DNA of 64,000 nt from Fulvivirga ligni (lineage in GTDB: Bacteria; Bacteroidota; Bacteroidia; Cytophagales; Cyclobacteriaceae). The position numbers and the translations under genes were made by a program. Shown here piece by piece: positions 2,291-23,186 of this stretch. How positions within the stretch are numbered: position 1 is the first letter of the stretch; the number at the start of each line of letters is the position of its first letter. The notes below the pieces were generated by a model. That model worked only from the letters and a program-made list of their open reading frames with translations. It was not told the DNA's origin and did no database searches. The stretch is from assembly GCF_021389935.1 (NCBI RefSeq), contig NZ_CP089979.1, forward strand, positions 2,275,001 through 2,339,000. Direction: 5' to 3'.

Positions 2291-2328
2291 ATCCCCAACA
2301 TTCCAACCATTCATCTGTTCTATTTCTG

Positions 2329-4946: not shown

Positions 4947-4966
4947 TTTTAAAAGTAAAAATTGCA

Positions 4967-5962
4967 ATGGAATATAACAGACTTGGAAAATCAGGTTTAC
5001 AAATAAGCAGATTGTCATTTGGTTCATGGCTTACCTTTGGCAAACAGATTGGTGACAATACTGCAGAAGATCTAATGAGAATAGCCTATGATGGTGGTAT
5101 TAACTTTTTTGATAATGCGGAAGCTTATGCTGGCGGCAAATCTGAAGAGGTAATGGGCGAGGTGCTTAGTAAAATGGGTTGGAGAAGAGATTGTTACATT
5201 GTTTCGAGTAAAGTTTTTTTTGGTGCTGATGAAGGTACGGGAAACTTAAAACCTACCCAAAGAGGTCTGAGTAGAAAGCATGTTACCGAAGCTTGCCATC
5301 AGGCACTGAAAAGATTAAAGGTAGATTATTTAGACTTATATTTTTGTCACCGGCCTGATAAGGAAACTCCTATAGAAGAAACGGTCTGGGCGATGCATAA
5401 TCTGATTCAGCAAGGTAAAGTGCTCTATTGGGGTACTTCTGAATGGAGCGCGCAAGAGATCATGGAGGCTCATATGGTAGCCAGACAATACAATCTCATA
5501 GGCCCTACCATGGAGCAGCCTCAATATAACATGATGGTGCGAGATAAAGTGGAGGTAGAGTATTCGCAGATATATAAAACTGTAGGGTTGGGTACTACAG
5601 TGTGGTCACCACTGGCTTCAGGCTTGCTAACAGGAAAGTACAACAATGAATCTCCGGAAGATACTCGCTTTAAGTTTGAAAGCTTAGGATGGTTAAAGGA
5701 TATAACTCTTGCAGAAGAAAAACTTGAGAAAGTAAGAAAACTAACCGCTTTTGCTGCTGAATTGGACACCTCAATGCCCTTATTAGCTTTGGCGTGGTGT
5801 TTAAAAAACGATAATGTGAGCACTGTGATTCTGGGTGCTTCAAAAACCAGCCAATTGGAAGAAAACCTGAAAGCTATTGATGTAAAAGATAAGCTCACCC
5901 CAGATGTAATGGAGCATATTGAGCAAATTCTAGATAATAAGCCTCAGCAACCAGCATTCTAA
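4967..5962 (+). CDS. Aldo/keto reductase (potassium-channel beta-subunit-like)
   Basis: A 331-residue NADPH-dependent TIM-barrel oxidoreductase. The AKR catalytic tetrad is visible as Asp49, Tyr54, Lys82 and His128. The C-terminal half has WSPLASGLLTGKY and VILGASKTSQLEENL, the NADP-binding segment of the KvAP-beta/YghZ-like group. It lies 20 bp after the ligase stop and 3 bp before the helicase start, so it is almost certainly co-transcribed with them, although AKRs are not recognised repair enzymes. Its substrate cannot be read from sequence. Confidence 0.88.
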   Translation: MEYNRLGKSGLQISRLSFGSWLTFGKQIGDNTAEDLMRIAYDGGINFFDNAEAYAGGKSEEVMGEVLSKMGWRRDCYIVSSKVFFGADEGTGNLKPTQRGLSRKHVTEACHQALKRLKVDYLDLYFCHRPDKETPIEETVWAMHNLIQQGKVLYWGTSEWSAQEIMEAHMVARQYNLIGPTMEQPQYNMMVRDKVEVEYSQIYKTVGLGTTVWSPLASGLLTGKYNNESPEDTRFKFESLGWLKDITLAEEKLEKVRKLTAFAAELDTSMPLLALAWCLKNDNVSTVILGASKTSQLEENLKAIDVKDKLTPDVMEHIEQILDNKPQQPAF

Positions 5963-5965
5963 CGT

Positions 5966-8422
5966 ATGGGGCAGGAGCTTATTCAAATAGGTGAGAGCTG
6001 GTTTAATAACCAAAACTGGAAGCCTTTTCAATTTCAATTGGAGAGCTGGCAGGCTTATTTGGATGGTTATAATGGGCTGGTAAACGCGCCTACGGGTAGT
6101 GGTAAAACTTATTCTTTGGTGATGCCTATTCTGTTAGAATACATTAGGGAAAACGGAGGGGCTACTTCATCTATTGGGAAAAATGGCCTTCGCGCCATTT
6201 GGATTACACCTATTAAAGCACTGGCCAAAGAGATCAGTAATTCAGCCCAGCGAGCGGTAAACGGGCTTGGTCTTGATTGGCAGGTGGCGCTCAGAACAGG
6301 AGATACATCACCAGCCGACCGGCAAAAGATGAAGAAAAATCCACCTGAGTTTCTGATCACCACGCCTGAGAGTTTGCAGCTTATGTTAGCTCAAAAACAA
6401 TATCCTAAGTTCTTTAAAAACCTCAGAGCCGTAGTGTGTGACGAATGGCATGAGCTGCTAGGCTCTAAACGTGGAGTGCAAATGGAGTTGGGCTTGTCCC
6501 GATTAAAAAATATTTGTACGGATCTGAAGGTATGGGGAATATCAGCAACCATAGGTAATATGGATGAGGCTGTTCAGGCGTTGCTGGGATCTACTTTAGA
6601 GCAAGGTAAAAGCAAAATTATTCGCTCAGATATAAAAAAGGCGATTGAGGTAGAATCTGTGCTACCAGACACTCTGGAGAAATTACCCTGGGCCGGACAT
6701 TTGGGGGTTAATCTCATAGATAAGGTCATTCCTATCATAAAGAACAGTAATAGTACTTTAATTTTTACCAACACACGGTCTTTCGCAGAGATTTGGTATC
6801 AAAAGCTTTTAGAAAGAGCACCTGAGTTGGCCGGAATAATGGCGATGCATCATGGCTCAATCAGTAGAGAGCTGAGAGATTGGGTGGAAAATGCACTGCA
6901 TCAAGAGCAGCTCAAAGCCGTGGTATGCACCTCAAGCTTGGATCTGGGGGTAGATTTCCGACCGGTAGAAACGATTATTCAGATAGGGAGCCCCAAGGGC
7001 GTAGCCCGGTTTATGCAGCGAGCAGGTAGAAGTGGTCATCAGCCAGGCGCGTTGAGTAAAATCTTCTTTGTACCTACTCACTCTCTTGAATTGGTGGAGG
7101 CAGCTGCGTTGCGGGAGGCTATTAAGGTGGGCCTTGTCGAGGATCGTATTCCTTATATCCGTTCTTTTGACGTACTCATCCAGTATCTGGTAACACTAGC
7201 CGTATCTGATGGCTTTAACGAAAAGGAAATCTTTGAAGAGGTAAAAGGCACTTTCAGTTTCAACAGCATCAATCGTGAAGAATGGGTGTGGTTGCTTAGC
7301 TTCATCACTACTGGCGGAAACGCTCTTACCGCATATGATGAATACAGGAAAGTTGAGGTTGAGGATGGTCTTTACAAGGTGAATAACAGAAGGATAGCTA
7401 TGCGACATCGCTTGTCCATCGGTACTATTGTGAGTGACTCTTCCTTAAAAGTGAAGTATGTTACCGGTAAGTATATCGGTACTATTGAAGAGTGGTTCAT
7501 TGCGCGCTTATCCCCGGGTGATGTTTTCTGGTTCGCCGGAAGAAATTTGGAGTTTGTGCGTATTAAAGAAATGGCTGTTCAGGTGCGTAATACCAACAAG
7601 AAAGCAAAGGCCGTTCCTTCCTGGATGGGCGGCAGAATGCCGCTTTCCAGTCAAATGTCAGTGATGCTGCGCAAAAAGTTGCATGAGGTCACCTTACCGG
7701 GAAAGAAAGAAGATGTAGAACTCAACTTTCTTCAGCCCTTGATGGATTTGCAACGAAAAAGGTCTCATTTGCCCTCTAAAGATGAGTTTTTGATTGAATA
7801 TTTTAAAACCAGAGAGGGGTATCACGTACTGATGTATCCTTTCGAAGGTCGTTTTGTTCATGAAGGTATGGGAGCGCTGTTGGCCAAAAGAATTAGTGAG
7901 ATTACTCCTATCACGCTGAGTATTGCCATGAATGATTATGGCTTTGAACTACTTTCTGATAAAGAAATTCCTATTTATGAAGCCCTGGAAATAGATATCC
8001 TTTCCTCTGATAACCTCTATCAAGATATTCAGGGAAGTATGAATAGTGTAGAGATGGCCAGAAGGCGATTTAGAGATATTGCTGCCATATCAGGCCTGGT
8101 GTTTAAGGGGTATCCTGGTCAGCAGATTAAAGACAGACATTTGCAGTCGTCCTCACAGTTATTTTTTGATGTTTTTCATGACTATGAAGCTGATAACTTA
8201 CTGCTGCTTCAGGCCTATGAGGAGGTGATGGATTTTCAATTAGAAGAAGCACGTATGCGAAAGGCTCTGGATAGAATCCATCATCAAAAAATCATTGTTA
8301 AAGAGCCTGAAAAGCCCACACCATTTGCTTTTCCTATTATGGTAGATAGAATGAGAGAAAAACTGTCATCTGAAAAGCTCGAAGACAGAATAAAAAGAAT
8401 GACCCTCCAGTTTGATGATTAG
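5966..8422 (+). CDS. Ligase-associated DEXH-box DNA helicase (Lhr-core type)
   Basis: An 818-residue superfamily 2 helicase. Walker A is APTGSGKT (Lys47) and Walker B/DEXH is Asp159-Glu-Trp-His162. SATIGN (motif III), STLIFTNTRSFAE (motif IV), TSSLDLGVDF (motif V) and QRAGRSGH (motif VI) follow. About 450 residues after the helicase core correspond to the winged-helix and Lhr-specific domains. Lhr-core enzymes are 3'-5' translocases, and this subgroup is encoded with the exonuclease, ATP-dependent ligase and PdeM phosphoesterase in a proposed DNA damage cluster. Here the first three are in one operon, with an aldo/keto reductase between ligase and helicase. Confidence 0.92.
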   Translation: MGQELIQIGESWFNNQNWKPFQFQLESWQAYLDGYNGLVNAPTGSGKTYSLVMPILLEYIRENGGATSSIGKNGLRAIWITPIKALAKEISNSAQRAVNGLGLDWQVALRTGDTSPADRQKMKKNPPEFLITTPESLQLMLAQKQYPKFFKNLRAVVCDEWHELLGSKRGVQMELGLSRLKNICTDLKVWGISATIGNMDEAVQALLGSTLEQGKSKIIRSDIKKAIEVESVLPDTLEKLPWAGHLGVNLIDKVIPIIKNSNSTLIFTNTRSFAEIWYQKLLERAPELAGIMAMHHGSISRELRDWVENALHQEQLKAVVCTSSLDLGVDFRPVETIIQIGSPKGVARFMQRAGRSGHQPGALSKIFFVPTHSLELVEAAALREAIKVGLVEDRIPYIRSFDVLIQYLVTLAVSDGFNEKEIFEEVKGTFSFNSINREEWVWLLSFITTGGNALTAYDEYRKVEVEDGLYKVNNRRIAMRHRLSIGTIVSDSSLKVKYVTGKYIGTIEEWFIARLSPGDVFWFAGRNLEFVRIKEMAVQVRNTNKKAKAVPSWMGGRMPLSSQMSVMLRKKLHEVTLPGKKEDVELNFLQPLMDLQRKRSHLPSKDEFLIEYFKTREGYHVLMYPFEGRFVHEGMGALLAKRISEITPITLSIAMNDYGFELLSDKEIPIYEALEIDILSSDNLYQDIQGSMNSVEMARRRFRDIAAISGLVFKGYPGQQIKDRHLQSSSQLFFDVFHDYEADNLLLLQAYEEVMDFQLEEARMRKALDRIHHQKIIVKEPEKPTPFAFPIMVDRMREKLSSEKLEDRIKRMTLQFDD

Positions 8423-8524: not shown

Positions 8525-8821
8525 ATGTCGAAATTCGCAGATTTAATAAATAGTAATAAGCCGGTGTTAGTAGATTTTTTTGCTAGTTGGTGTGGCCCGT
8601 GTAAGGCTATGGATCCGGTTTTAAGTGAGTTGAAATCAGAAATGGGAGAAAAAGCTCGCATAATAAAGGTAGATGTAGATGCTAACAAGCATGCAGCATT
8701 TACATATGGAATAAGTGGTGTGCCTACTTTTGTTCTTTTTAAGAACGGAAAGGTTATCTGGAAACAAAGTGGCGCTACACCGAAGCATCAGCTAAGCAAT
8801 ATTATTAATCAATTTGTTTAA
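8525..8821 (+). CDS. trxA: Thioredoxin
   Basis: A 98-residue cytosolic thioredoxin with no signal peptide. The active site is WCGPCK (Cys23 and Cys26), and the cis-proline loop GVPTFVLF is present. It reduces protein disulfides using thioredoxin reductase. It lies 102 bp after the helicase, so it may have its own promoter. Its 3' end overlaps the convergent gene ending at 8805 by 17 bp. A symbol beyond generic trxA is not justified because genomes of this group often have several thioredoxins. Confidence 0.93.
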   Translation: MSKFADLINSNKPVLVDFFASWCGPCKAMDPVLSELKSEMGEKARIIKVDVDANKHAAFTYGISGVPTFVLFKNGKVIWKQSGATPKHQLSNIINQFV

Positions 8822-9803
8822 GTGATGCCAATCTATTCAGCTCTTCCAAAGAGTGAATGTAATTGGTGGTGATGATATTATCAGAACTTGATCTAAAGAA
8901 ATTAAGGATGTGGAAATCTTCAGAGGCTTCATCCAGAGCCTGATCAAAGGGGATTTCCACACCTTCGTATTGATCATAATTATAGGGGACTCGCTGTTTT
9001 AGAAGTAAGTTTTTTATGGCAATGGCATGCCCCTTTCTGTTAAGTGTGTTTGAAACTCCACTAATCACTTCCGGGTTGGTTTCAAAACCCAGATTGAATA
9101 TATAATTCTCTTTTTCATTCCAGTCCAGATTCTCACATTCTATATATAAGGCTCCATCTCTGATTACCATATAAGTGCTCTTGTATCTGTGGCCCAGAGT
9201 TTTGGTTTCTACCATCACTATCTCTTCCGAATGCTCTTTAATAATAAAAGGTGTTTTTATGAGCACCGGGCTTCTGTCAGATTTTTGATAATAACGGAAA
9301 TAGTGCCCTACAAAATGTTTTCGCAACAGGTAAAGCGTGCCGTTGTTGTTCTTTTCATTATGCCAGGTAGGTTTTCCATTCGAACTGGTTTTCCAACTAT
9401 CCCAATCATTGCTGTGAATGCCTAAAAAAGAAAGCAGCACATTGAGCTTTTTATCCTTGGCATTACTGTAATTCCAATAGCATTGCAGTGTTTTACCACT
9501 GATCCAGTTATAAGGTCTTTGTTGATTCATGGATTTCAAGAGATCAACAAAATCATCCATAGAGCTGAGCTTATATCTGAATTTAATGTTGTCAAATTCA
9601 TTCTCCCCAAATAGCAAGAAATCTTTCACCAAATAGGTGTTTCTGATCACCTGCTGAGTTACCTCCTGATTGATCCTTCGGGCTATTCTCTCAAATACTG
9701 TTCGGGTGCAATTTTTCCAGTCCAACCCTTTGGCGGGAACTCCTGTAACCTGCAAGAGTGATGGAGAATTTTCAATCTCCGATTTTATTCTGGACGGGAT
9801 CAT
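8805..9803 (-). CDS. Conserved-looking hypothetical protein, possibly regulatory
   Basis: A 332-residue soluble protein with no signal peptide or membrane segment, and no family I can name. Residues about 100-140 (KTLQCYWNYSNA followed by LLSFLGIHSNDWDSW) vaguely resemble the helix-turn-helix-like segment found in some Bacteroidetes proteins, where TL.R.WGY precedes L..FLGY.dW. This is only a hint of a DNA-binding or regulatory role. The remaining two thirds are rich in beta-strand-like and aromatic stretches. It is transcribed away from the SusC operon (222-bp divergent gap) and overlaps the thioredoxin 3' end by 17 bp. Confidence 0.65.
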   Translation of the reverse strand: MIPSRIKSEIENSPSLLQVTGVPAKGLDWKNCTRTVFERIARRINQEVTQQVIRNTYLVKDFLLFGENEFDNIKFRYKLSSMDDFVDLLKSMNQQRPYNWISGKTLQCYWNYSNAKDKKLNVLLSFLGIHSNDWDSWKTSSNGKPTWHNEKNNNGTLYLLRKHFVGHYFRYYQKSDRSPVLIKTPFIIKEHSEEIVMVETKTLGHRYKSTYMVIRDGALYIECENLDWNEKENYIFNLGFETNPEVISGVSNTLNRKGHAIAIKNLLLKQRVPYNYDQYEGVEIPFDQALDEASEDFHILNFFRSSSDNIITTNYIHSLEELNRLASLKQID

Positions 9804-10025: not shown

Positions 10026-13000
10026 ATGAAGAAGTTCTTTACTTATTTATTATTCTTGCTATTTGTGCTCTCGGTGCACCTGGGTTTAGCCCAGTCGCAA
10101 ACCATAAATGGTCAGGTTTCTACCGAAGATGGAGAGGCTTTGCCTGGTGTTTCAGTGCTAATAAAGGGGAGTAGCACCGGTACCGTTACAGATGTAGATG
10201 GCAAGTATACATTGCAGGTAAGCGATGAAGCGGCCACACTAATTTTCTCATTTATCGGCTACGAAACTGCCGAAGTGTCTATCCAGGGTCGCTCAAAAAT
10301 TGATTTCACCATGACCCCAGATATCACTGAATTGAATGAGGTGGTAGTAACGGCTTTGGGGATTTCCCGGGAAAAGCGTGCCTTAGGATATGCTGTTGAG
10401 CAGGTAAACCAAACCGCTATTGAAAATAGTGGGCAGACTAATATTGTTAACACTCTTCAGGGACGAGTGGCAGGTGTTACAATTCGTAACTCCAGTGGCG
10501 CACCTGGTTCAGGTGCTGACATTATTATACGTGGTATGACCTCCCTGGATCCTAATAGGACTAATAGACCTCTATATGTGATAGACGGAATAGAAATGAG
10601 TGATGACGTTGATGCGCTGCCTATTTTGCCGAGTGCCGGTTCAAATGCTACAACTTCTGAATCTCAAGCCAGCGTTGGGAATAGAGCTATTGATATTAAT
10701 CCTCGAGATATTGAATCATTGACCATATTGAAGGGAGCCCAGGCTACTGCTTTATACGGTATAAGAGCAGCCAATGGAGCCGTAATTATCACTACGAAGA
10801 AGGGTAAGAAAGGTGCTCCTCAAATCAATCTGTATTATGGGGCAGGATGGTCTGAAGTAAATAAGGCGCCAACTGTTCAGAGAAACTTTATTGATGGAAT
10901 TTACTCAACCACAGCTAAAAGAAATGGCTATTTATGGGATACCTGGGGTGCACCTGTGAATCCTGAGCTTCCGGATCCTACCCATGACATTTATGATGAT
11001 TTTTTTCAGAAGGGTACCGAGTCAAGCTTTGGTGGAAGTGTGGCAGGAGCTAATGATATTTTCAATTACCGATTTTCTATTGACAAACTTTATCAAACCG
11101 GAGTTATTCCTAAAACTGACTGGGGAAAAACTAATTTCAGTTTTTCCACGGGTATAAATATTTCTAAAAGATTAGAAGCCACTGCAAGTATAAGATATGC
11201 AAATACCGGTGGTAATAAGCCTCATGTTGGTGATAAGTCAATTTTGAGTAATCTTGGATATGTTACTACAGTAGCTGATGTGAATCATTATGATGAGCCG
11301 TATGACTATAGCAATAATATCTTCGCCGGTATTATTGATCATCCTCTGTATTTGGTAAATAATAACAAATATACTGATGATGTAAATAGATATATTTCAG
11401 GAATTGGGCTAAAGTATAAATGGAATGATCAGCTATCATTTAACTATAAAGTTGGTACAGATGTATACAGCGATGAGCGTACGAGGATAGTTGACAGTGA
11501 AACTGATGAAGGCTCTCAAGTAGGTGGCTTTGTGGTAGAGCAGCGTAATAAAAGTGCCTCATTTACATCTAATCTATTTGCCCAGTTTAAATATGATCTA
11601 CCGTATGATATGAGCTTGTCAGGTGTTTTGGGTCAATATTTATTTATTAGTGATAAGAACTATCTTACTACTCGTGGTGAGGATCTTGTTCTGGATAATT
11701 TTTATAATCTAGATAATGCTATAAATATTTATCAGGCAAATGATAAGACCAGATACAGAAATGCTGCCGTATATGGAGAGTTAACCTTTGGTTTTAAAAA
11801 CTATTTATTTCTTTCACTTACAGGTCGAAACGACTGGTCATCCACTCTTCCTAAGCAGAACAATTCTTATTTCTTTCCTGCAGCCAGCTTAAGTTGGGTA
11901 GTTTCGGATATGTTTGAAATCCCTGAGTATATTTCTTTTGTAAAATTGAGAGGTTCTTATGCCATTGTGGGTAAAGATGCTTCACCTTATCAAACCGGAG
12001 TATACTTTCAAAAGGCTACCAATTTTCCATTTGGAGATGCCTTGGGCTTTCGTCAGTCTACTTTAATAGGTGATGAGGAGCTGAAACCGGAGTTTACTAA
12101 AACTACTGAGTTTGGTGCCGATCTAAGGTTTGTTCAGAACCGTCTTGGCATCCAATTTACATATTATAAGAGTGATCTTACTGATATGATTTTGTCAGTG
12201 CCTATCAGCAACACTACCGGTGCCGCCAGATTTGTTACTAATGCCGGCTCTATGACTAGTGAAGGAATAGAGTTGAGTTTAAACGCATCGCCAGTCAAAA
12301 TGAATGATTTTTCATGGGATGTAAACCTTAATTGGTCCACCCAGGAGGGAAAAGTAAATGAAATAGCAGATGGCATTGAGGAAATTGAATTATTTTCTTC
12401 TTTCGGTATCACTAATAAGTATGTGAGAGGTGGAAAAATCGGTGATTTATACGGTTATGTGTATCGTAGAGCCCCTGATGGTCAATTAATTGTAAATGAC
12501 AGTGGCCTTCCTGAGGTCGATTGGGATAGTTTACAGTTAGCAGGTAATGCAATTCCTGACTGGTCTGCTGGCCTTACCAATACTTTTCGCTACAAAGGCT
12601 TTGAGCTATCTGTATTGCTCGAGTGGAAGAAGGGTGGAGATGTGCTTGATATGGGTAGAAGGAATAGTATGAGAAATGGTCAGTTGAAGGAAACAGAGCG
12701 ACGATTTGAAGAGGTAGTTTTTACAGGAGTGAATGAAGTTACTGATGAAGAAGGTGAGGTAATCGATTATGTGCCAAATACTACACCTGTAGAAATAACG
12801 CCGTCGTTTTATCGCTCCACTACCAACTATAATTATGCGGCAGAGGTCCTTCTTGAGGATGCTTCCTGGTTTAGGGTAAGGAATATCAGTTTGTCTTATA
12901 ATTTCCCTAATCAATTGCTTGGAAAGATTGGATTGAACTCGGCCAAGCTCTCGCTAACTGCTTACAATGTATTCTTAAGTACACCGGTGAAAGGCTATGA

Positions 13001-13106
13001 TCCTGAGACCAATTATTTCGGTAGTGGAAGCAATATCTATGGATACACTGGTTTAAAGACTCCTGCTACCAGAAGTTTTTCAGTTCATTTAAATCTTGGA
13101 ATTTAA
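10026..13106 (+). CDS. SusC/RagA-family TonB-linked outer-membrane transporter
   Basis: A 1026-residue outer-membrane channel that imports a ligand captured by its SusD partner, powered by TonB. Signal peptide about 1-22 (ends GLAQS); carboxypeptidase-regulatory-like beta-sandwich about 25-100 (TINGQVSTEDGEALPGVSV); plug domain from about 110 (EVVVTALGISREKR, then NGAVIITTKKGKKG). The rest is a 22-strand-type barrel ending in an aromatic-rich strand with terminal NLGI. It is the first gene of a six-gene operon running to 18231. The downstream enzymes act on D-amino-acid-containing peptides, so the cargo is inferred to be murein peptides rather than glycan. No sigma/anti-sigma or hybrid two-component regulator is adjacent. 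Confidence 0.93.
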   Translation: MKKFFTYLLFLLFVLSVHLGLAQSQTINGQVSTEDGEALPGVSVLIKGSSTGTVTDVDGKYTLQVSDEAATLIFSFIGYETAEVSIQGRSKIDFTMTPDITELNEVVVTALGISREKRALGYAVEQVNQTAIENSGQTNIVNTLQGRVAGVTIRNSSGAPGSGADIIIRGMTSLDPNRTNRPLYVIDGIEMSDDVDALPILPSAGSNATTSESQASVGNRAIDINPRDIESLTILKGAQATALYGIRAANGAVIITTKKGKKGAPQINLYYGAGWSEVNKAPTVQRNFIDGIYSTTAKRNGYLWDTWGAPVNPELPDPTHDIYDDFFQKGTESSFGGSVAGANDIFNYRFSIDKLYQTGVIPKTDWGKTNFSFSTGINISKRLEATASIRYANTGGNKPHVGDKSILSNLGYVTTVADVNHYDEPYDYSNNIFAGIIDHPLYLVNNNKYTDDVNRYISGIGLKYKWNDQLSFNYKVGTDVYSDERTRIVDSETDEGSQVGGFVVEQRNKSASFTSNLFAQFKYDLPYDMSLSGVLGQYLFISDKNYLTTRGEDLVLDNFYNLDNAINIYQANDKTRYRNAAVYGELTFGFKNYLFLSLTGRNDWSSTLPKQNNSYFFPAASLSWVVSDMFEIPEYISFVKLRGSYAIVGKDASPYQTGVYFQKATNFPFGDALGFRQSTLIGDEELKPEFTKTTEFGADLRFVQNRLGIQFTYYKSDLTDMILSVPISNTTGAARFVTNAGSMTSEGIELSLNASPVKMNDFSWDVNLNWSTQEGKVNEIADGIEEIELFSSFGITNKYVRGGKIGDLYGYVYRRAPDGQLIVNDSGLPEVDWDSLQLAGNAIPDWSAGLTNTFRYKGFELSVLLEWKKGGDVLDMGRRNSMRNGQLKETERRFEEVVFTGVNEVTDEEGEVIDYVPNTTPVEITPSFYRSTTNYNYAAEVLLEDASWFRVRNISLSYNFPNQLLGKIGLNSAKLSLTAYNVFLSTPVKGYDPETNYFGSGSNIYGYTGLKTPATRSFSVHLNLGI

Positions 13107-13116
13107 AAACCAGACT

Positions 13117-14529
13117 ATGAAACTTATCAATAAAAATATCTTTTTATTACTAATAATGGCGCTTTTTACATTTTCATGTAATGACTTTCTTGATGTAAAT
13201 AGTGACCCAAATAAAGTAGATGCGGAGCAGGTAAACTTAAGTTCTTTGCTCCCTACAGCTCTGGAGGCCACTTCGGAAACACATTATTCCACAATATATA
13301 CGGCATCTAGAGTGACGCATCAGGTAGACCATGTAGCTGGATATTACACGGAGTTCACCATGGATGCGGACTGGTCTAGAATTTATCTGGAGAGTTTAAA
13401 TACACTGAAAGTAATTGCGGATAAGGCTGAGGAGGAGGAGTCGCCTCATTATTTGGGCATCGCAAGGGCTCTTCAAGCATTGAATCTAGGAATTCTTACA
13501 GATTCATGGGAAGATGCACCCTATTCAATGGCACTCACGGGTTCTAAAAACATTACTCCTGAGTATGACTCTCAAGAAAGCCTTTATGGAATGATTTTCA
13601 TCTATTTGGATGAGGCAGAAGCTGGTTTGATGGCTGAAGAATCGTTCAATGAGCCAGGTCAGGATGATATGGTTTATGGTGGTGATTTATCAAAATGGTT
13701 AAAGTTAGTCCATTCATTGAGAGCAAGATACATGCTGCATCTTCATCAGAAGGGTGTATTTACTGCGGCACAGATCTTAGCTGAGATTGATGAAGGTTTT
13801 GAATCTAATGCCGATAATTTCCAACTCTTTTATAATGATGTCAATCTAAACCCAGTTCATAGTAAAGTTGCTCTAGCGAATGAAACCGGAAACCTGACCA
13901 TCACTCATGGTAAATACCTGGTCGATTTAATGAACGGGCGATTGTATACTGTTTTTGATCCGAGATTACCCATCATAGCAGATACTACAGGGAGCGAAAA
14001 GCCTACTTATGAAGGATTGGCCTCTTATGATTCTAATTCACCTGTTCATAGTACGGAAATAACCAGATCTACCTGGTATGCCACTGCGGATGCGCCCATA
14101 ATTATGATGAATTACTCTGAATTAAAATTCATAGAAGCAGAAATGGCTCTGTCTACGGATATAGCCAGGGCGAACGAAGCTTATTTGGATGGCATCAGCG
14201 CTCACATGGATATGCTTGGGGTAAGTGAAAGTGATGAAAATGATTATCTCACTGATCCTAATGTAGACATGGGAGGCTCTCCTGATCTAGAGCATATTAT
14301 GAAGGAAAAATATTTAGCCTTGTTTTTGAATTTTGAGACATGGAATGATATGAGAAGGTATGGATTTAGCACTGATGTTTACAAGGGGTTTGAAGAGCCT
14401 GAGTACGATGGCCGTGATGAGCCAGCAACACGTGCTTTATACCCTATTTCCGAACTCAATAGAAATGGAGCCAACTTGTTTGCTCACATCAAAGATTTCA
14501 CAGATACCATGTGGAAAGATCAAAATTAA
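13117..14529 (+). CDS. SusD/RagB-family nutrient-binding outer-membrane lipoprotein
   Basis: A 470-residue surface lipoprotein forming the lid on the SusC channel. The start at 13117 is chosen because it gives a clean lipoprotein signal peptide with lipidated Cys21 (LFTFSC then NDFLD). The frame remains open seven codons further upstream but overlaps the SusC 3' end. Sequence features DFLDVNSDPN at the N-terminus and the C-terminal KYLALFLNFETWNDMRRYGF are typical of the SusD_2 (PF12771-like) group, whose ligands are often not polysaccharides. The gap to the SusC stop is 10 bp. Confidence 0.92.
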   Translation: MKLINKNIFLLLIMALFTFSCNDFLDVNSDPNKVDAEQVNLSSLLPTALEATSETHYSTIYTASRVTHQVDHVAGYYTEFTMDADWSRIYLESLNTLKVIADKAEEEESPHYLGIARALQALNLGILTDSWEDAPYSMALTGSKNITPEYDSQESLYGMIFIYLDEAEAGLMAEESFNEPGQDDMVYGGDLSKWLKLVHSLRARYMLHLHQKGVFTAAQILAEIDEGFESNADNFQLFYNDVNLNPVHSKVALANETGNLTITHGKYLVDLMNGRLYTVFDPRLPIIADTTGSEKPTYEGLASYDSNSPVHSTEITRSTWYATADAPIIMMNYSELKFIEAEMALSTDIARANEAYLDGISAHMDMLGVSESDENDYLTDPNVDMGGSPDLEHIMKEKYLALFLNFETWNDMRRYGFSTDVYKGFEEPEYDGRDEPATRALYPISELNRNGANLFAHIKDFTDTMWKDQN

Positions 14530-14548
14530 GCAACCTAACAAATTAGCA

Positions 14549-14971
14549 ATGAAGACTTTATATATAATATTCTCAGTATTAGTGTTGTCATCTTTAACCT
14601 CATGTTATGAGGAAGAGTACTTCTTAGATGATAATTCTACCTCAGAAAATAAGCATTTCCCAGTAGTGCAGTCGGTTGTGGTGGAAGGAGAGGTAGATGA
14701 AGATAGTAGCATAAATTTACTTACACATTATTGGTCTCAAGATCCTATAGATCATTATGAGCTGTACTCTACTGTTGAAGGTGGAGAAGAATCATTGGTG
14801 CTGGAAATGCCTTATCAGTATAATTTTGATGAAGAGGCGGGAAGCGAACTTGTTTCGTTGCCTTATACCATTCCCTCATCAACTTCTGGCAAAACAATTG
14901 ATTTTAGAGTGTTGATAGTGAACCAAAATGGTCTGTCAAAAGACCGAACCACCTCCATCACCGTAAACTAA
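14549..14971 (+). CDS. Small surface lipoprotein (SusE/F-like position)
   Basis: A 140-residue lipoprotein: signal peptide with lipidated Cys19 (LSSLTSC) followed by YEEEY, an acidic stretch resembling the Bacteroidetes lipoprotein export signal for surface display. The body (about 40-140) is beta-rich and may be a single Ig-like domain. The ATG at 14549 is preferred over the open upstream frame, which overlaps susD. It lies 19 bp after susD and 7 bp before the LD-carboxypeptidase. No family is recognised; by position it could be an accessory ligand-binding protein of the SusCD complex. Confidence 0.75.
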   Translation: MKTLYIIFSVLVLSSLTSCYEEEYFLDDNSTSENKHFPVVQSVVVEGEVDEDSSINLLTHYWSQDPIDHYELYSTVEGGEESLVLEMPYQYNFDEEAGSELVSLPYTIPSSTSGKTIDFRVLIVNQNGLSKDRTTSITVN

Positions 14972-14978
14972 ACCAGCC

Positions 14979-16025
14979 TTGACATCCAGGAGAAACTTTA
15001 TTGGTGGGGCCGCAATTTTATCGCTGGCCCCTGCTTTCAATTTAACTGCGAAGGAGAGATTTTTCATTCGATCAGAGAAGATAATCAAGCCTCCGAAGCT
15101 CAAGCAAGGTGATGTGGTAGGTCTCATAAGCCCTTCAGGGGTGATTCATGAGACAGAACCTTACGAAATAGCCATTGAAACCTTGCAAAGCCTTGGTTTT
15201 AAGGTGAAGCCAAGTGAGCATTTGTATGATAGGTATGGATATTTAGCCGGCACCGATCAGGATAGGGCTGATGAAATTAATAGCATGTTCAGGGATAAAG
15301 AGATCAAAGCTATTTTCTGTATTCGCGGTGGTGCTGGAGCAGCCAGAATATTGGATCTTCTTGATTATGAATTAATTAGGAAGAATCCCAAAGTCATGAT
15401 TGGTTATAGTGACATCACAGCATTATTGCTGGCCATTTATGTTAAAACGGGTCTGGTTTCATTTCATGGGCCTGTGGCCACTTCAGATTGGAATGATTTT
15501 ACACTGGATTCATTTAAACGGATTCTGTTTCAGGGAGAAGCTATCACTTTTACTAATCCTACAAAAAGAGCTGATGAGTTGGTACAAACTGAAGACCGGA
15601 TTAGAACTATACATCCCGGAAAGGCTTCAGGCGTATTGGTAGGGGGTAATCTGTCCGTATTGTCGGCATTAGTAGGCTCTGCTTACTTACCTGATTGGAA
15701 AGGCAAAATTCTCTTTCTGGAAGATGTAGGTGAGGAAATGCATCGGATAGATAGAATGATGTCTCAGCTTAAGCTGGCTGGTATTTTAGATGTTCTCTCT
15801 GGCTTTGTGTTTGGTAAATGCTCTCGATGCACACCGGTGGAGGGATATGGATCACTCACTTTTGAAGAGGTAATCGATCATTACATTAAACCCTTGGGAA
15901 TTCCAGCCTATAGCGGTGCTATGATCGGTCATATAAGTAAAAAATTCACTATTCCGGTAGGCTGCATGGTAGAGGTAGATGCCAGTAATGGCACTATTGA
16001 GATGAAAGAATCGGCCGTAATTTAA
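14979..16025 (+). CDS. LD-carboxypeptidase (peptidase family S66), Tat-exported
   Basis: A 348-residue serine peptidase that removes the terminal D-Ala from murein tetrapeptides (L,D bond). The S66 triad is visible: Ser144 in MIGYSDIT, Glu248 in FLEDVGE and His318 in AMIGHISKK. The start is a TTG at 14979, giving TSRRNFIGGAAILSLAPA, a twin-arginine signal matching S-R-R-x-F. The enzyme is therefore probably periplasmic, unlike cytoplasmic E. coli LdcA. It lies between the small surface lipoprotein and the DUF1611 gene (gaps 7 and 20 bp). Periplasmic placement fits trimming of peptides imported by SusCD. Confidence 0.9.
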   Translation: MTSRRNFIGGAAILSLAPAFNLTAKERFFIRSEKIIKPPKLKQGDVVGLISPSGVIHETEPYEIAIETLQSLGFKVKPSEHLYDRYGYLAGTDQDRADEINSMFRDKEIKAIFCIRGGAGAARILDLLDYELIRKNPKVMIGYSDITALLLAIYVKTGLVSFHGPVATSDWNDFTLDSFKRILFQGEAITFTNPTKRADELVQTEDRIRTIHPGKASGVLVGGNLSVLSALVGSAYLPDWKGKILFLEDVGEEMHRIDRMMSQLKLAGILDVLSGFVFGKCSRCTPVEGYGSLTFEEVIDHYIKPLGIPAYSGAMIGHISKKFTIPVGCMVEVDASNGTIEMKESAVI

Positions 16026-16045
16026 TTTGTTAAAAGCCTTTAATT

Positions 16046-17149
16046 ATGATAAACGATAATGACTTTCACCAAGCTCTGAAAGGAACAGCTTGTATTATTA
16101 CTGGTGGATTATTTGATACCATTCATGCTAAAACTACTCACGGATTACTGAGAGAATCTAATCGATTCAAGATTAAATGTATAGTGGATGATAAATTTGC
16201 AGGGCATTCGGTTGAGGATGTGGTGCTGGGGCTGGTATCTTCCGTGCCCATTTACAGCTCCATAGCCTCTATGTGCGAGGCTGGCATTAAGCCTGATTAT
16301 GCCATTATTGGTATGGCCACCAAAGGGGGAGTGCTGCCACAAAGTTTATATCCGGTCATTCTCGAGGCCTTAAGTTCTGGGATCAATATTGTTAATGGGC
16401 TTCACCAGCCACTGTCTGAAGTGGAGGAATTGAAAAGTGCTGCTGAAGAACATCAAGTTCATATTTACGATATCCGTAAACCGAAGAAATTTGATCAACT
16501 GCACTTCTGGAGTGGGAAAATTATGGAGGTTAAGGCTTTGAAATTGGCTATCCTGGGTACTGACTGCTCTGTGGGAAAGAGAACTACCGCCAAGTTGCTG
16601 ACCAATGCCCTCAACCAGGCAGGTATTAAAACTCAGATGATTTATACCGGGCAAACCGGATGGCTGCAAGGCACGAGGTACGGTCTTATATTTGATGCCA
16701 CACCCAATGACTTTATCCCTGGGGAGATAGAGCACGCCATTTATCAATGTTGGACAGAAGAAAAACCTCAGGTGATCATTGTGGAGGGCCAGGCTTCCCT
16801 GTTGAATCCGGGTGGCCCTTGTGGTTCGGAATTTATAATTTCAGCTAAATTAGATGGAGTCATTCTTCAGCATCATCCAATAAGAGAAAAATATCATAAC
16901 TTGGAAAAGTTACAGGATAGAATCAAAGATCCATCAACAGATATTGAAATCATCAGGCTGATGGGGAGTGAGGTCTGGGCTTTGACTTTAAATATTGCGG
17001 ATATGAGCCAGACTGAGATTGCACATCATACGGATCAGCTTACCGAGCGATGTTCTATTCCCGTGGTGAGTCCGTTAACTCAGGGGATTCAACCTTTAGT
17101 GCATCTGATAAATTCTAAATTAAGCCTGGAAAAGGCAGAGATTTCTTAA
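16046..17149 (+). CDS. DUF1611-family P-loop protein (DgcN-like)
   Basis: A 367-residue cytoplasmic protein with a Rossmann-like N-terminal domain (about 10-150, ACIITGGLF) and a P-loop domain starting at about 165. Its Walker-A-like sequence GTDCSVGKRTT has Gly171 and Lys178, and IIVEGQASLLNPGG follows. Members of this family called DgcN have been described in marine bacteria as acting with an enolase-superfamily racemase, DgcA, in D-glutamate catabolism, reportedly by N-acetylation; I cite this from memory. The immediate downstream gene is an enolase-superfamily epimerase (14-bp gap), repeating that pairing. Whether this protein acts on free D-Glu or on a murein dipeptide is open. Confidence 0.82.
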   Translation: MINDNDFHQALKGTACIITGGLFDTIHAKTTHGLLRESNRFKIKCIVDDKFAGHSVEDVVLGLVSSVPIYSSIASMCEAGIKPDYAIIGMATKGGVLPQSLYPVILEALSSGINIVNGLHQPLSEVEELKSAAEEHQVHIYDIRKPKKFDQLHFWSGKIMEVKALKLAILGTDCSVGKRTTAKLLTNALNQAGIKTQMIYTGQTGWLQGTRYGLIFDATPNDFIPGEIEHAIYQCWTEEKPQVIIVEGQASLLNPGGPCGSEFIISAKLDGVILQHHPIREKYHNLEKLQDRIKDPSTDIEIIRLMGSEVWALTLNIADMSQTEIAHHTDQLTERCSIPVVSPLTQGIQPLVHLINSKLSLEKAEIS

Positions 17150-17163
17150 TGGTATAAAATTAT

Positions 17164-18231
17164 ATGAAAATAAAGAGTATTGATGTTTGGCGCATGAATC
17201 TGGGAAACACCAGACCCTACACCATAGCGTTCAAAACGGTAAGTGATGTGGATAGTGTGTTTGTTAAGCTAACATTGGAAAATGGCATCTATGGAATGGG
17301 AGCGGGCAACCCAAGTCAGCAGGTGGTAGGAGAATCATTAGATGATACACTGAACACGCTCTCTGAGGAGAATCTTCGATTTTTAATTGGAAGAGATATT
17401 CGTGAGTTTAATGGTATTCTTCATGAGGTGATGACCAGATTTCCTAAGACACCGGCAGCCAGAGCGGCTCTTGACATAGCTCTTCACGATGGCTTTTGTA
17501 AATACCTGGGCGTTCCTGTGGCGGCCTTTTTAGGTCAGAAAATCAATAAAATGGAGACATCTGTAACCATTGGGATAAAGAATGTGGCCGATACACTGGA
17601 AGAGGCTCAAGAATATTATGATATGGGCTTTAGGTGTTTAAAAGTGAAGACTGGGCACGATGTAGATGAGGATATTGAAAGAATGGTCAAGCTCAGAGAG
17701 GTGTTTTCAAGTCAGATGAAAATTCGAGTGGATGCTAATCAGGGGTATGAAAAAGAAGATTTATTCAAATTTTTTAATGATACCAAAGCCTTAGATATAG
17801 AGCTGATAGAGCAACCTTTAAAATCCTCAAACATCATGGAAATGAAGGCCTTGCCCGATGAGGTGAAAGGTCTGATTGCGGCTGATGAAAGCTTAAAATC
17901 ACCTGAAAATGCGTTTGAATTGGCATCTCCTCCAGTGGCCAGTAAAATCTTTAATATCAAACTAATGAAGTCAGGAGGCATATATCCGGCCATACAGATT
18001 GCCAACATTGCAAGGGTTTCAGGAGTAGAGCTGATGTGGGGTTGTAATGACGAAAGCGCTGTAAGTATCTCGGCGGCTCTTCATGCAGCACTTTGCTTTT
18101 CTAACACTAAGTACATTGATCTTGACGGAAGCCTAGACCTTGTGCAAGATGCCGTTTCAGGAGGCTTTAAAATAGAAAATGGATGGATGTCCGTAACGGA
18201 TAAACCAGGATTGGGAGTGGAGTTAATATAA
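17164..18231 (+). CDS. L-Ala-D/L-Glu-type dipeptide epimerase (enolase superfamily)
   Basis: A 355-residue TIM-barrel enzyme that epimerises the D-Glu of murein dipeptide L-Ala-D-Glu. Expected catalytic and metal residues are present: Lys160 and Lys162 (KxK), Asp190, Glu216, Asp241 and Lys266. Asp319-Leu-Asp321 forms the DxD motif that binds the dipeptide ammonium group. These positions are within a few residues of Bacillus subtilis AEE (K160, K162, D191, E219, D244, K268, D321, D323, recalled). The DxD motif argues for a dipeptide substrate rather than N-acetyl-glutamate. It is the last gene of the operon and is followed immediately by a strong terminator. Confidence 0.9.
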   Translation: MKIKSIDVWRMNLGNTRPYTIAFKTVSDVDSVFVKLTLENGIYGMGAGNPSQQVVGESLDDTLNTLSEENLRFLIGRDIREFNGILHEVMTRFPKTPAARAALDIALHDGFCKYLGVPVAAFLGQKINKMETSVTIGIKNVADTLEEAQEYYDMGFRCLKVKTGHDVDEDIERMVKLREVFSSQMKIRVDANQGYEKEDLFKFFNDTKALDIELIEQPLKSSNIMEMKALPDEVKGLIAADESLKSPENAFELASPPVASKIFNIKLMKSGGIYPAIQIANIARVSGVELMWGCNDESAVSISAALHAALCFSNTKYIDLDGSLDLVQDAVSGGFKIENGWMSVTDKPGLGVELI

Positions 18232-18314
18232 AAAAAAGGCTGTTTCAAAAGTAAGTTCTCAGTCAGATGAGGCATTAATTCATCTGAATTCTACTTTTGA
18301 AACAGCCTTTTTTT
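18231..18314. terminator. Strong bidirectional intrinsic terminator
   Basis: A 23-nt perfect inverted repeat (18231-18253 with 18292-18314) begins with seven A and ends with T residues, so both strands give a stem followed by a U-run. A second 8-bp stem (18263-18270 with 18280-18287) sits inside the loop. It separates the convergent epimerase and DAHP synthase genes. Confidence 0.95.
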
Positions 18315-19515: not shown

Positions 19516-20157
19516 ATGGTAGCTGAGATTAAAGGGGAGCAGTTTCTTCTACTCTCCGAAAAAGCTCTTTTTTGGGAGAAACATAGAATCTTATTAATCG
19601 CGGACTTACACTTGGGTAAGGCCAACCATTTTCGCCGGTCTGGTATTGCCGTTTCGCAGCAGGTGAATGACCATAATATAGAAAAGCTGATTCAGGTTTT
19701 AAATCAGTGCCAGCCAGCGCGAGTGATTTTTATGGGTGATCTGTTTCATAGTCACTATAATCAAGAATGGGAGGTGTTTGGGCAGGTGTTAAAATATTTT
19801 CCAGCCATATCGTTTGAACTCATTATTGGCAATCATGATATCATGAGTGAATACCAATATCTAAAACATCAGCTTAAGCTTCATCAGGAGCCACTTATCA
19901 TTGCTCCATTTTCTTTGTCTCACGAAACTATGGAAACGGAAAGCGAAGACCTTTATAATATAGCAGGCCATTTGCATCCGGGAGTAAGGCTCACGGGTAA
20001 GGGCAGGCAGTCAGTAAAGCTGCCATGTTTTTACTTTGGAAAGGAATTTGGATTATTACCGGCCTTTGGTGAGTTTACAGGCTTGGCTATCGTAAAACCT
20101 AAAAAGGATGATCAGGTGTATGTGGTGCTGGATAAGCAGATTCTGAAAGCCCAATAA
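19516..20157 (+). CDS. pdeM: Ligase-associated DNA damage response endonuclease PdeM (calcineurin-like phosphoesterase)
   Basis: A 213-residue binuclear metallophosphoesterase. Motifs in order: ADLHLGK, MGDLFHS, IGNHD and AGHLHPG, the last supplying metal-binding histidines. The N-terminal LSEKALFWEKHRILLIADLHLGK pattern is typical of the PdeM group, which normally sits in one cluster with the ATP-dependent ligase, exonuclease and Lhr-type helicase. Here it stands alone about 11 kb downstream of those genes, separated by the SusCD operon and DAHP synthase. Manganese-dependent nuclease or phosphodiesterase activity is known for the family. It is followed by a short hairpin. Confidence 0.88.
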   Translation: MVAEIKGEQFLLLSEKALFWEKHRILLIADLHLGKANHFRRSGIAVSQQVNDHNIEKLIQVLNQCQPARVIFMGDLFHSHYNQEWEVFGQVLKYFPAISFELIIGNHDIMSEYQYLKHQLKLHQEPLIIAPFSLSHETMETESEDLYNIAGHLHPGVRLTGKGRQSVKLPCFYFGKEFGLLPAFGEFTGLAIVKPKKDDQVYVVLDKQILKAQ

Positions 20158-21545: not shown

Positions 21546-22079
21546 ATGGTGATGAAGAGATCAGTTATAATATTGGTATTAGGAATGTTAATGGCTACTG
21601 GCGTTCAGGCGCAGGATGCTATCAGCAAGTTTTTTAGCAAGTACGAAGCAGACGATAGTTTTACACATGTATCGATTAATAAGCGGATGATTGAGTTATT
21701 CACTAATCTGGAAATCGAAACCAAAGAGGATGAGGAGATTATGAATGCCATTTCTAAACTTCAAGGTCTTAAGATTTTGGCAAAAGAAGATACCCCAAAT
21801 GCTAAAAAGCTTTATGATGAGGCATTTAAGCTGATTTCTTCTGGAGGATATGATGAGCTTATGTCAGTAAGAGATGGAGATACAAACATGAAATTTATGA
21901 TTAAAGAAAGCGGCAGTAAAATTAGTGAGCTTCTTATGGTTATTGGAGGTGAAAAGGAATTCTTCATACTGAGCCTATATGGAACTATTGATTTGAAACA
22001 AATTGCTAAAATGTCTAAGGCAATGGAAATAGACGGTCTTAAGGGACTTGAGAAACTTGGAGATCAAAAATCTAATTAG
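21546..22079 (+). CDS. DUF4252 protein, first of three paralogues
   Basis: A 177-residue exported protein with signal peptide about 1-22 (ends GVQAQ). The pattern SKFFSKYEADDSFTHVSINKRM, YDELMSVRDGDTNMKFMIKE and ELLMVIGGEKEFFILSLYGTIDLKQIAKM is that of DUF4252. It lies 5 bp after the putative anti-sigma gene; starts at 21546 and 21552 are both possible. Function is unknown; association with an ECF sigma unit suggests an envelope-stress or sensing role (inference). Confidence 0.85.
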   Translation: MVMKRSVIILVLGMLMATGVQAQDAISKFFSKYEADDSFTHVSINKRMIELFTNLEIETKEDEEIMNAISKLQGLKILAKEDTPNAKKLYDEAFKLISSGGYDELMSVRDGDTNMKFMIKESGSKISELLMVIGGEKEFFILSLYGTIDLKQIAKMSKAMEIDGLKGLEKLGDQKSN

Positions 22080-22137
22080 CCCTACTTCCAGGTCAAAATA
22101 AAAACAACAACACATTAACAACTCAAAATAAATAATT

Positions 22138-22644
22138 ATGAAACAATTAGCAGTAACAGCGGTAGCTTTGATTTTTAGTGTAAGTTTTACGATTGCTCAA
22201 AGCAAAACGGTACAAAAATTCCATGATAAGTATAAGGATAATGAAGATGCAAAAGTAGTGTCTTTAAATCATGGATTATTTGAATTATTGGCCTCGGTAG
22301 CCTCTTTTGATGAAGATGATGAAGATGCAAAAGTGATTGCTAGAATAGCTGACAATATCACATCTATGGATCTTTTAGCTATTCCTTTGTACAAATCCGG
22401 ATTCAACAATAATGACATTGTGGATATGAGATCTGCATTGAAGAAGGAAAATTATGAAGAAATGATGACAGTAAGAGATGGTAGCGATCATGTATATTTT
22501 CTTACGCAAGGCAACCAAAATGAGGTAAAAAACATGTTAGTGCTTATCAGTGGAGATGATGAGTTCATGGTGATGAACATAAATGGAACCCTTAACATGA
22601 AAGATCTTGCTTACCTTGCAAAAAACAGAGAAAAGTGGGATTAA
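22138..22644 (+). CDS. DUF4252 protein, second of three paralogues
   Basis: A 168-residue exported protein (signal peptide about 1-20, ends FTIAQ). It shares with its neighbours the order KFHDKYKDNEDAKVVSLNHGLFELL, YEEMMTVRDG, and MLVLISGDDEFMVMNINGTLNMKDLA. It contains an acidic insert EDDEDAK. The 58-bp gap to the first paralogue has no terminator, so co-transcription is likely. Divergence between the three copies is high, so the duplications are old. Confidence 0.85.
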   Translation: MKQLAVTAVALIFSVSFTIAQSKTVQKFHDKYKDNEDAKVVSLNHGLFELLASVASFDEDDEDAKVIARIADNITSMDLLAIPLYKSGFNNNDIVDMRSALKKENYEEMMTVRDGSDHVYFLTQGNQNEVKNMLVLISGDDEFMVMNINGTLNMKDLAYLAKNREKWD

Positions 22645-22715
22645 AGTAAAATACTTAGTTAATTAAAGAAATGCCTGGCATGTATTATGTCAGGCATAAC
22701 CTATTTATAAATATT

Positions 22716-23186
22716 ATGCAGAAGATTATTTTCTTATTGGCTTTTGTAATGCTTCCAATGCTTTCTGAGGCGCAAAGTGAAACCACTCAACAATTCTCCA
22801 AAGAACATGAGGAAGCCCAGGTTTTCTTCTTTTATAAGAATACACTCAAGATGCTAAATCAAAACGACAGTGAAGAATTTGCTGAGCTGATAAAGGATAT
22901 TGATAAAATGAAATTCATTATAGCAGATAAGGCCAAGAGTAATGTGGGCGATAATGATTACAATGAGTTGGTAAAAGGATATAAAAGTGAGCACTTTGAA
23001 GAGCTCATGACCATGCGCCACCAGGGAATGAAGGTAAATGTATACATACAAGAAGATGATGGTGTAACTACAGGTCTGGTATTTCTGATGACTGATAATG
23101 AAAAACTTTCTATACTTGACGTAAAGGGCTCAGTACCTTTAAATAAGCTAGCCAGTATCATCTCCAAAGTGCAAGAGTTCAAGTAG
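22716..23186 (+). CDS. DUF4252 protein, third of three paralogues
   Basis: A 156-residue exported protein. ATG 22716 is chosen over the open frame from 22671 because it gives a proper signal peptide (KIIFLLAFVMLPMLSEAQS). Family pattern: EEAQVFFFYKNTLKMLN, HFEELMTMRHQGMKVNVYIQE, GLVFLMTDNEKLSILDVKGSVPLNKLASI. It ends the sigma, anti-sigma and DUF4252 cluster; the next gene is 107 bp downstream and functionally unrelated. Confidence 0.82.
   Translation: MQKIIFLLAFVMLPMLSEAQSETTQQFSKEHEEAQVFFFYKNTLKMLNQNDSEEFAELIKDIDKMKFIIADKAKSNVGDNDYNELVKGYKSEHFEELMTMRHQGMKVNVYIQEDDGVTTGLVFLMTDNEKLSILDVKGSVPLNKLASIISKVQEFK

Follow-up and report, generated by a model that had tools for sequence, protein, structure and literature searches.

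The 64,000-nucleotide stretch of the Fulvivirga ligni genome analysed here (RefSeq assembly GCF_021389935.1, contig NZ_CP089979.1, positions 2,275,001 to 2,339,000; hereafter the window) carries a six-gene operon in which an outer-membrane import system of the SusCD type is followed by an S66 peptidase, a DUF1611 protein and an enolase-superfamily dipeptide epimerase (DE). On balance, we slightly favour the view that this is a locus for the uptake and catabolism of cell-wall (murein) stem peptides, a substrate that we infer, and the locus would probably represent a murein-peptide operon of the ykf type in a variant form, in which SusCD serves as the outer-membrane gate. A more elaborate proposal, to which we give somewhat less than even chances, is that of a dedicated cell-wall-peptide uptake system in which SusCD is combined with its own regulator (up332), a DE clade of new specificity (possibly for meso-diaminopimelate (mDap)-D-Ala or X-D-Glu) and a DUF1611 protein of new function on D-amino-acid peptides, SusCD having been recruited at least twice.

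The six genes, SusC, SusD, small lipoprotein, S66 peptidase, DUF1611 protein and DE, follow each other on the plus strand (Table 1) with intergenic gaps of 7, 10, 7, 20 and 14 bp in that order, exactly as an earlier note drawn up from the letters of this DNA had described the run. SusC and SusD are assigned to an outer-membrane import system by their matches to TIGR04056 and PF12771 and by the 7 bp that separate their genes. The bases ahead of the SusC, SusD and S66 starts are similar (ATAACCAGCCT, AAACCAGACT and AAACCAGCC, respectively), which supports the TTG start of the S66 gene, and the hairpin at 18263-18287 was found once as compared with a mean of 0.0 (standard deviation 0.2) in shuffled sequence. 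No Pfam match was obtained for the small lipoprotein (14540-14971), homologs of which occupy the same position in two related loci, L027 of genome G005 and L143 of genome G006; a match of the L143 protein to GH85_C (E 0.042) stayed below the cut-off and was taken as chance. A Pfam scan of the six operon genes revealed no glycoside hydrolase or polysaccharide lyase domain, in agreement with the lack of glycan enzymes noted before, and the locus thus has none of the carbohydrate-active enzymes by which a polysaccharide utilisation locus is recognised. The lone glucanase-like protein among the other 20 window proteins scanned is encoded about 38 kb away.

The assignment to murein peptides is based above all on gene neighbourhood. 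Relatives were gathered by a contig search with alignment, a single-protein query having confirmed none. A DUF1611 match occurs in 22 of 58 genomes (own genome included; one match is a weak fragment), and 18 of 20 DUF1611 regions taken with their flanks from 25 match rows contain DE (the own region, L021, L022, L023 and L025 were left out). A larger set of 82 loci consists of the best 80 of at least 496 DUF1611 relatives plus the window and L027 and is weighted towards close relatives of the DUF1611 protein; directons were delimited automatically with gaps of up to 300 bp, those of L048 and L074 being broken by spurious antisense open reading frames, and L048 was counted by eye. In 79 of these loci DE lies within a few genes of DUF1611, and in 72 the two are immediate neighbours on one strand; this grouping therefore exceeds chance. 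DE is missing from the remaining three (L067, L083 and L116). A same-strand gene is present within 300 bp upstream of DUF1611 in 54 of the 82 loci, not counting the window where this gene is S66. It is a beta-lactamase2 gene in 41 cases, and M14 is carried by four of the 54, while 54 control genes situated about 7 kb away and hand-picked from 129 candidates include beta-lactamase2 at most twice, a bound derived from its absence among the best 25 of 103 families, the last of which had two members. The consensus of the upstream genes contains STVK and SDN motifs, which we take to be the mark of active serine D-peptidases.

Further enzymes of cell-wall type are encountered when these neighbourhoods are followed outwards. 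S66 is encoded in seven of the 82 loci (window, L047, L048, L049, L052, L057 and L072), each time together with the SusC described here, and amidase_2 in five (L048, L052, L054, L057 and L072), of which only L054 is devoid of SusC. In relatives, genes for amidase_2, M14 and beta-lactamase2 proteins are located between S66 and DUF1611, and the fullest order reads up332 / SusC-SusD-lipoprotein-S66-amidase-betalactamase2(-M14)-DUF1611-DE. Three loci have S13 or M15 D-Ala peptidases in the vicinity of genes for related DUF1611 or DE proteins: a gene for an S13 D-Ala-D-Ala carboxypeptidase lies directly behind DE in L044 and two genes behind DUF1611 in L043, and L046 has an alanine-racemase-type gene and M15 behind a DUF1611 paralog.

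This SusC precedes the enzyme module in ten of the 82 loci (window, L027, L047-L052, L057 and L072, with a SusC fragment in L050), and G006, outside that set, has it ahead of DE as well, giving 11 linked loci in total. The six genes, for which the earlier note had suggested looking for conserved synteny, are not always kept together: L027 is without S66, and in L143 both S66 and DUF1611 are missing, which leaves up332 / SusC-SusD-lipoprotein-DE. The constant part among near relatives is SusCD, the lipoprotein and DE, and S66 and DUF1611 are accessory. The persistence of SusCD, lipoprotein and DE in G006 without the other two enzymes speaks in favour of a murein-peptide locus and, as DE is kept there without DUF1611, weakens any scheme in which the former needs the latter. 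In L069 and L074, a distinct SusCD pair with a SusD of type PF07980 rather than PF12771 is located behind DE, so that SusCD appears to have been joined to the enzyme module independently; the two loci share neighbours and may reflect one event. In L148 (G009), two tandem SusCD pairs stand ahead of the same enzyme module. Most characterised SusCD pairs import glycans, and this is what would suggest an ordinary glycan system standing by chance ahead of the enzymes. That explanation was already disfavoured by the operon's lack of a carbohydrate-active enzyme, and the linkage of SusC and DE in 11 loci, together with the two further loci where DE adjoins a different SusCD pair, reduces its probability to nearly nil.

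The S66 protein is predicted to be an exported peptidase and probably an LD-carboxypeptidase. It starts with a twin arginine (SRRNFI) of the type used for twin-arginine translocation (Tat), and this is kept in four aligned operon-linked relatives and missing from L152, the paralog encoded elsewhere in the same genome. In addition to S66 domains, it possesses Ser144, Glu248 and His318, which presumably form the S66 catalytic triad and are invariant across seven aligned S66 proteins.

DE has the catalytic lysine pair, the magnesium ligands and the DxD motif of L-Ala-D/L-Glu epimerases. K160, K162, D190, E216, D241 and K266 are conserved in all 79 sequences compared, the window enzyme included, and D319-x-D321 is present in 78 (the remaining one has a gap), which confirms the earlier description as a dipeptide epimerase with an intact motif. 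The closest solved protein by both sequence and fold is the dipeptide epimerase from Methylococcus capsulatus in complex with L-Arg-D-Lys (PDB 3RIT/3RO6), which shares these catalytic and DxD residues. Comparison with 3rit_A gave 339 bits (phmmer), 47% identity, a template modelling (TM) score of 0.97 and a deviation of 1.2 A to a model with a predicted local distance difference test (pLDDT) value of 92.5, while 197 bits were obtained with the L-Ala-D/L-Glu epimerase from Bacillus subtilis. In a tree of 27 enzymes, in which some deep branches are long, the window DE, its relatives and 3RIT form a single clade (100/100) separate from YkfB and DgcA, and by clade DE is thus of the Methylococcus type. 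Equivalog models for L-Ala-D/L-Glu epimerases yielded 225 of the required 500 and 92 of the required 343 bits. As YkfB from B. velezensis also falls short of the first cut-off (252/500 bits), the tree is the stronger test. L-Ala-D/L-Glu epimerase was accordingly rejected as a family assignment, on the cut-offs and above all on the tree, and kept as a possible activity; the conversion of D-Glu to L-Glu that had been put forward earlier gains no support from family membership. Specificity is said to vary within the dipeptide epimerase family, as reportedly described by Lukk et al. in 2012.

The pocket residues of the clade are nearly uniform. Within the 79 sequences, which include the window and G006 and from which matches below 250 bits (the cut-off DE of L068) were excluded, K24, S51 and N295 each occur in 78 and D296 in 77, and position 299 is A or I in 65, as opposed to R in the Methylococcus enzyme. 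The references have R24, E51, M295, D296 and R299 (3RIT) and R24, T51, M295 and I296 (YkfB). The window enzyme differs from 3RIT by S51, N295 and A299 and shares D296 with it, positions for which we infer a role in binding; the DE of L041, outside the set, has Y24 and A51. Since near-uniform positions differ from both YkfB and the Methylococcus enzyme, the clade fits neither. R24 of YkfB presumably suits an acidic C-terminal side chain; K24 would likewise suit a side chain such as Glu, so that Glu stays among the candidates, and D296 could suit a basic first residue. L-Ala-D-Glu and mDap-D-Ala are both murein dipeptides.

The same features invite the thought that the locus scavenges D-residue or basic dipeptides of non-murein origin, with general peptide import followed by racemisation of cationic dipeptides such as Arg-Lys. 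DE shares its 100/100 group and D296 with the enzyme solved with L-Arg-D-Lys, in G015 an S9 peptidase gene accompanies a SusC relative, and RagAB of Porphyromonas gingivalis is a SusCD-type pair described as a peptide importer and proposed to import peptides, not glycans (PMC11817032). The SusD of the window is of Pfam type PF12771, which sets it apart from RagAB. The pocket, however, is unlike that of the Methylococcus enzyme at positions 51 and 295 in 78 of 79 and at position 299 in 65 of 79 sequences, and the amidase_2, S66 and beta-lactamase2 neighbours are cell-wall types, and we regard scavenging of non-murein dipeptides as unlikely. To our knowledge, no D-amino-acid enzymes are linked to RagAB.

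The DUF1611 protein had been called DgcN-like in the earlier note. It reaches 145 of the 480 bits required by the DgcN equivalog. In a 26-row tree it belongs to a 100/100 clade of its own that excludes DgcN as well as the DE-linked proteins of haloarchaea and those linked to pyridoxal phosphate (PLP)-dependent alanine-racemase-type genes; it is therefore not a DgcN ortholog but a distant relative. Its P-loop, GTDCxxGKRT, is invariant or nearly so across 19 DUF1611 sequences. DgcN presumably acts on D-Glu with acetyl-CoA, and by analogy the DUF1611 protein may, a suggestion made with low confidence, N-acylate a D-amino acid released from peptides. The chemistry of the DgcN-DgcA pathway is taken as reportedly described by Yu et al., and the NCBIfam names were also used for it.

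D-glutamate catabolism of the DgcN-DgcA kind was the simplest account of DUF1611 and DE side by side: the DUF1611 protein would acetylate D-Glu, the enolase-superfamily enzyme would racemise N-acetyl-D-Glu, and SusCD would supply D-Glu peptides. The genes are adjacent in 72 of 82 loci, an arrangement also seen for dgcN and dgcA of Vibrio pelagius and Pantoea (L133 and L141). Membership was rejected because both cut-offs were missed (145/480 bits for DgcN and 144/400 for DgcA, which V. pelagius DgcA passes with 416/400) and because both proteins belong to separate clades. DE furthermore survives in G006 without DUF1611, and some other members of the DUF1611 family stand beside PLP alanine-racemase-type genes, where acetylating the amino group first would serve no purpose. 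We consider this account improbable. Neither SusCD nor S66 is annotated beside DgcN-DgcA in the two stretches viewed (L133 and L141). The pathway is named in PMC10845958. DUF1611 paralogs are paired with PLP alanine/ornithine-racemase-type genes in L046 (5719-8542, flipped), L131 and L132, with an M15 dipeptidase also present in L046, and the family thus recurs beside racemases of two unrelated folds.

Among known systems, the closest likeness is to the ykfABCD-type operon of Bacillus. On a plasmid of B. velezensis (L140), genes for a peptide ATP-binding cassette (ABC) transporter, an LD-carboxypeptidase, DE and a C40 peptidase are found together, and in Bacteroides finegoldii C40 and DE are combined. 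The core of the ykf arrangement is present in the window, where S66 and a dipeptide epimerase, with one gene between them, share an operon with a predicted peptide uptake system. In contrast to ykf-type operons, that of the window has no NlpC/P60 (C40) endopeptidase and no peptide ABC transporter; its S66 has a Tat start, uptake relies on SusCD, DE is from another clade and DUF1611 is added. On a plasmid of the alphaproteobacterium Croceicoccus marinus (L136), an epimerase, a peptide transporter, a TonB-dependent receptor, DUF1611 and a serine hydrolase form one run, with no SusD annotated, a DgcN-like DUF1611 (446/480 bits) and an epimerase, cut at the edge of the stretch, that groups with DgcA, unlike the window DE. 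This is possibly a proteobacterial counterpart using a TonB receptor without SusD.

The remaining steps of a murein-peptide pathway were sought in the host genome, a single contig of 6.52 Mb. It contains one amidase_2, four NlpC/P60 and three M14 matches, one PTR2-type peptide transporter, a single reading frame that was matched in two pieces, and the second S66 (L152) without a Tat start. TIGR00901, which we take to be the model for AmpG-type transporters, found no match in this genome; five of 14 control genomes were matched, two of them above the cut-off. A homolog of the Bla2-M14 protein of G002 was not detected in the genome either, in a search that had no positive control. As a PTR2-type protein is present and an AmpG-type match was not found, a peptide route through a general transporter is plausible.

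In the mechanism that we propose for the uptake and catabolism of murein peptides, SusD and the small lipoprotein would capture peptides from lysed bacteria or those leaked by the cell itself, and SusC would import them with TonB. In the periplasm, S66 would trim the terminal D-Ala, and further trimming would be achieved in relatives by amidase, beta-lactamase-fold and M14 peptidases and in F. ligni by enzymes encoded elsewhere. Small peptides could then cross the inner membrane via an ordinary peptide transporter, for which the PTR2-type protein is a candidate, and in the cytoplasm DE would convert the D residue at the C-terminus of a murein dipeptide into its L form, allowing common dipeptidases to finish. 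The likeliest substrate would be L-Ala-D-Glu, the main alternative being a dipeptide that begins with a basic residue, for instance mDap-D-Ala. In the weakest step of the scheme, the DUF1611 protein would, like the distantly related DgcN, N-acylate a D-amino acid that has been set free. The operon would most likely be regulated by up332. The peptides might instead be thought of as the cell's own turnover products, recovered rather than taken from others. A second S66 without Tat start and a cell-wall amidase gene in the genome would fit such recycling, and another recovery route would be useful as the AmpG-type model remained unmatched. On the other hand, a lidded outer-membrane importer is needed only for peptides outside the cell, and the patchy occurrence of the SusCD locus, found in seven of 15 genomes of the genus, is unlike that of a core recycling function; own-wall recycling is in our view quite improbable.

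A number of observations weigh against the assignment to murein peptides. The Tat-exported LD-carboxypeptidase of the earlier note stands as far as its start, its S66 domains and the triad residues are concerned, but the protein attains just 190 of the 378 bits set for the LdcA equivalog (PRK11253), and the nearest solved S66 sequences are MccF-like immunity proteins (159 bits), ahead of a muramoyltetrapeptide carboxypeptidase (127 bits). The solved epimerase that DE resembles most has a cationic dipeptide as its ligand, and specificities of dipeptide epimerases vary within the family (PMC5808125, PMC13338154). Genes for an amidase, a C40 or M14 peptidase or an inner-membrane transporter are not found in the window operon itself, S66 is missing from G005 and S66 together with DUF1611 from G006, and in about half of the 82 loci the seeds detected no cell-wall peptidase in the directon (beta-lactamase2 is present in 42). 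Five loci have a pyridine-nucleotide-disulphide oxidoreductase directly upstream of DUF1611; in L060 this gene is one of a 2-oxoglutarate dehydrogenase E1-E2-E3 set, and DE is followed by a gene for carbamoyl-phosphate synthase, neighbours that could hint at glutamate or be a matter of mere neighbourhood. Seven loci (L144-L147 and L149-L151, L144 comprising only 4.6 kb) encode a SusC with 35-39% identity and no DUF1611-DE module. In one of them, L146 (G015), genes for an S9 peptidase and an S13 homolog stand behind the SusCD pair, and in the other six (L144, L145, L147, L149, L150 and L151) no peptidase seed match was obtained. As peptidases follow in one of seven loci, the wider SusC family is not peptide-specific on present evidence. 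Synteny with cell-wall peptidases speaks for one part of the original proposal, namely a SusCD system directed at D-peptides of murein type, whereas the family claims made for DE and DUF1611 fail.

A divergent gene that did not figure in the earlier note, up332, completes the locus. No Pfam or NCBIfam match was obtained for its product. Some match is present in 11 of 56 genomes, and the eight that are full-length (own genome included; 50-67% identity to the window protein) all immediately adjoin this SusC locus, SusC being a fragment in G023; five weaker matches in five genomes (21-25% identity) span the C-terminal half only. The AlphaFold model is weak (predicted TM score 0.48), a Foldseek search returned nothing at E<=0.001 and a PDB profile search a single match at E 0.29. 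A regulator with a recognisable fold was therefore discarded, and in the absence of such a fold it is position and co-occurrence that make up332 a candidate for a dedicated local regulator of the SusCD operon.

Table 1. Features of the SusCD locus, with coordinates given as positions in the window
Feature	Position	Strand	Matches and signals
SusC/RagA TonB-dependent outer-membrane transporter	10026..13106	+	TIGR04056 657 bits (cut-off 368); Plug and barrel domains
SusD-like surface lipoprotein (lid), SusD-like_2 type	13114..14529	+	PF12771 189.5 bits (cut-off 27); lipobox TFSC
Small acidic lipoprotein, 143 aa, probable surface accessory	14540..14971	+	Lipobox LTSC, then YEEEY
S66 peptidase, Tat-exported, probable LD-carboxypeptidase	14979..16025	+	TTG start; PF02016 and PF17676
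DUF1611 protein, N-terminal Rossmann-like and P-loop domain	16046..17149	+	PF17396 and PF07755 (174 bits)
Enolase-superfamily dipeptide epimerase (DE), Methylococcus type	17164..18231	+	MR_MLE_N and MR_MLE_C
Terminator-like hairpin closing the operon	18263..18287	+	9-pair stem with T-rich tail
up332, uncharacterised protein divergent from SusC, candidate local regulator	8805..9803	-	

The genes on either side of the locus (2164-8422 and 19516-20157) encode a weak metallo-beta-lactamase-fold match, an ATP-dependent DNA ligase, an Lhr-type helicase and a calcineurin-like phosphoesterase; they look like a ligase-associated DNA-repair cluster with the SusCD operon between its parts, and genes of similar size stand at the same places in L027 and L143. 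Further downstream, three tandem DUF4252 genes (21546-23186) are preceded by an apparent sigma-factor gene (20508) and a small gene without Pfam match (21019). A PLP enzyme with Ala_racemase_N and D-serine dehydratase domains (31484-32566) represents a D-amino-acid gene about 13 kb downstream. Elsewhere, runs of similarly sized genes lie ahead of DUF1611 in L060, L058, L061, L067 and L075, and on the far side of up332 in L148 (G009) there are M14 and beta-lactamase-type seed matches and a phosphodiester glycosidase (NAGPA).

Among the organic matter that is degraded slowly in the sea, bacterial peptidoglycan is an important component (PMC10845958). In a partial collection of the literature, we found no paper on SusCD import of murein peptides across the outer membrane of Bacteroidota, none joining SusC, SusD and peptidoglycan recycling and none joining DUF1611 and an epimerase. 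The DE subclade, compared here in 79 sequences, has a pocket unlike that of either characterised type aligned, YkfB and the Methylococcus enzyme. Should the proposed role of the locus be true, SusCD systems, which have mostly been studied for glycans, would be extended to cell-wall peptides, and concrete candidates would be at hand for the importer, the regulator and the enzymes of cell-wall-peptide uptake.

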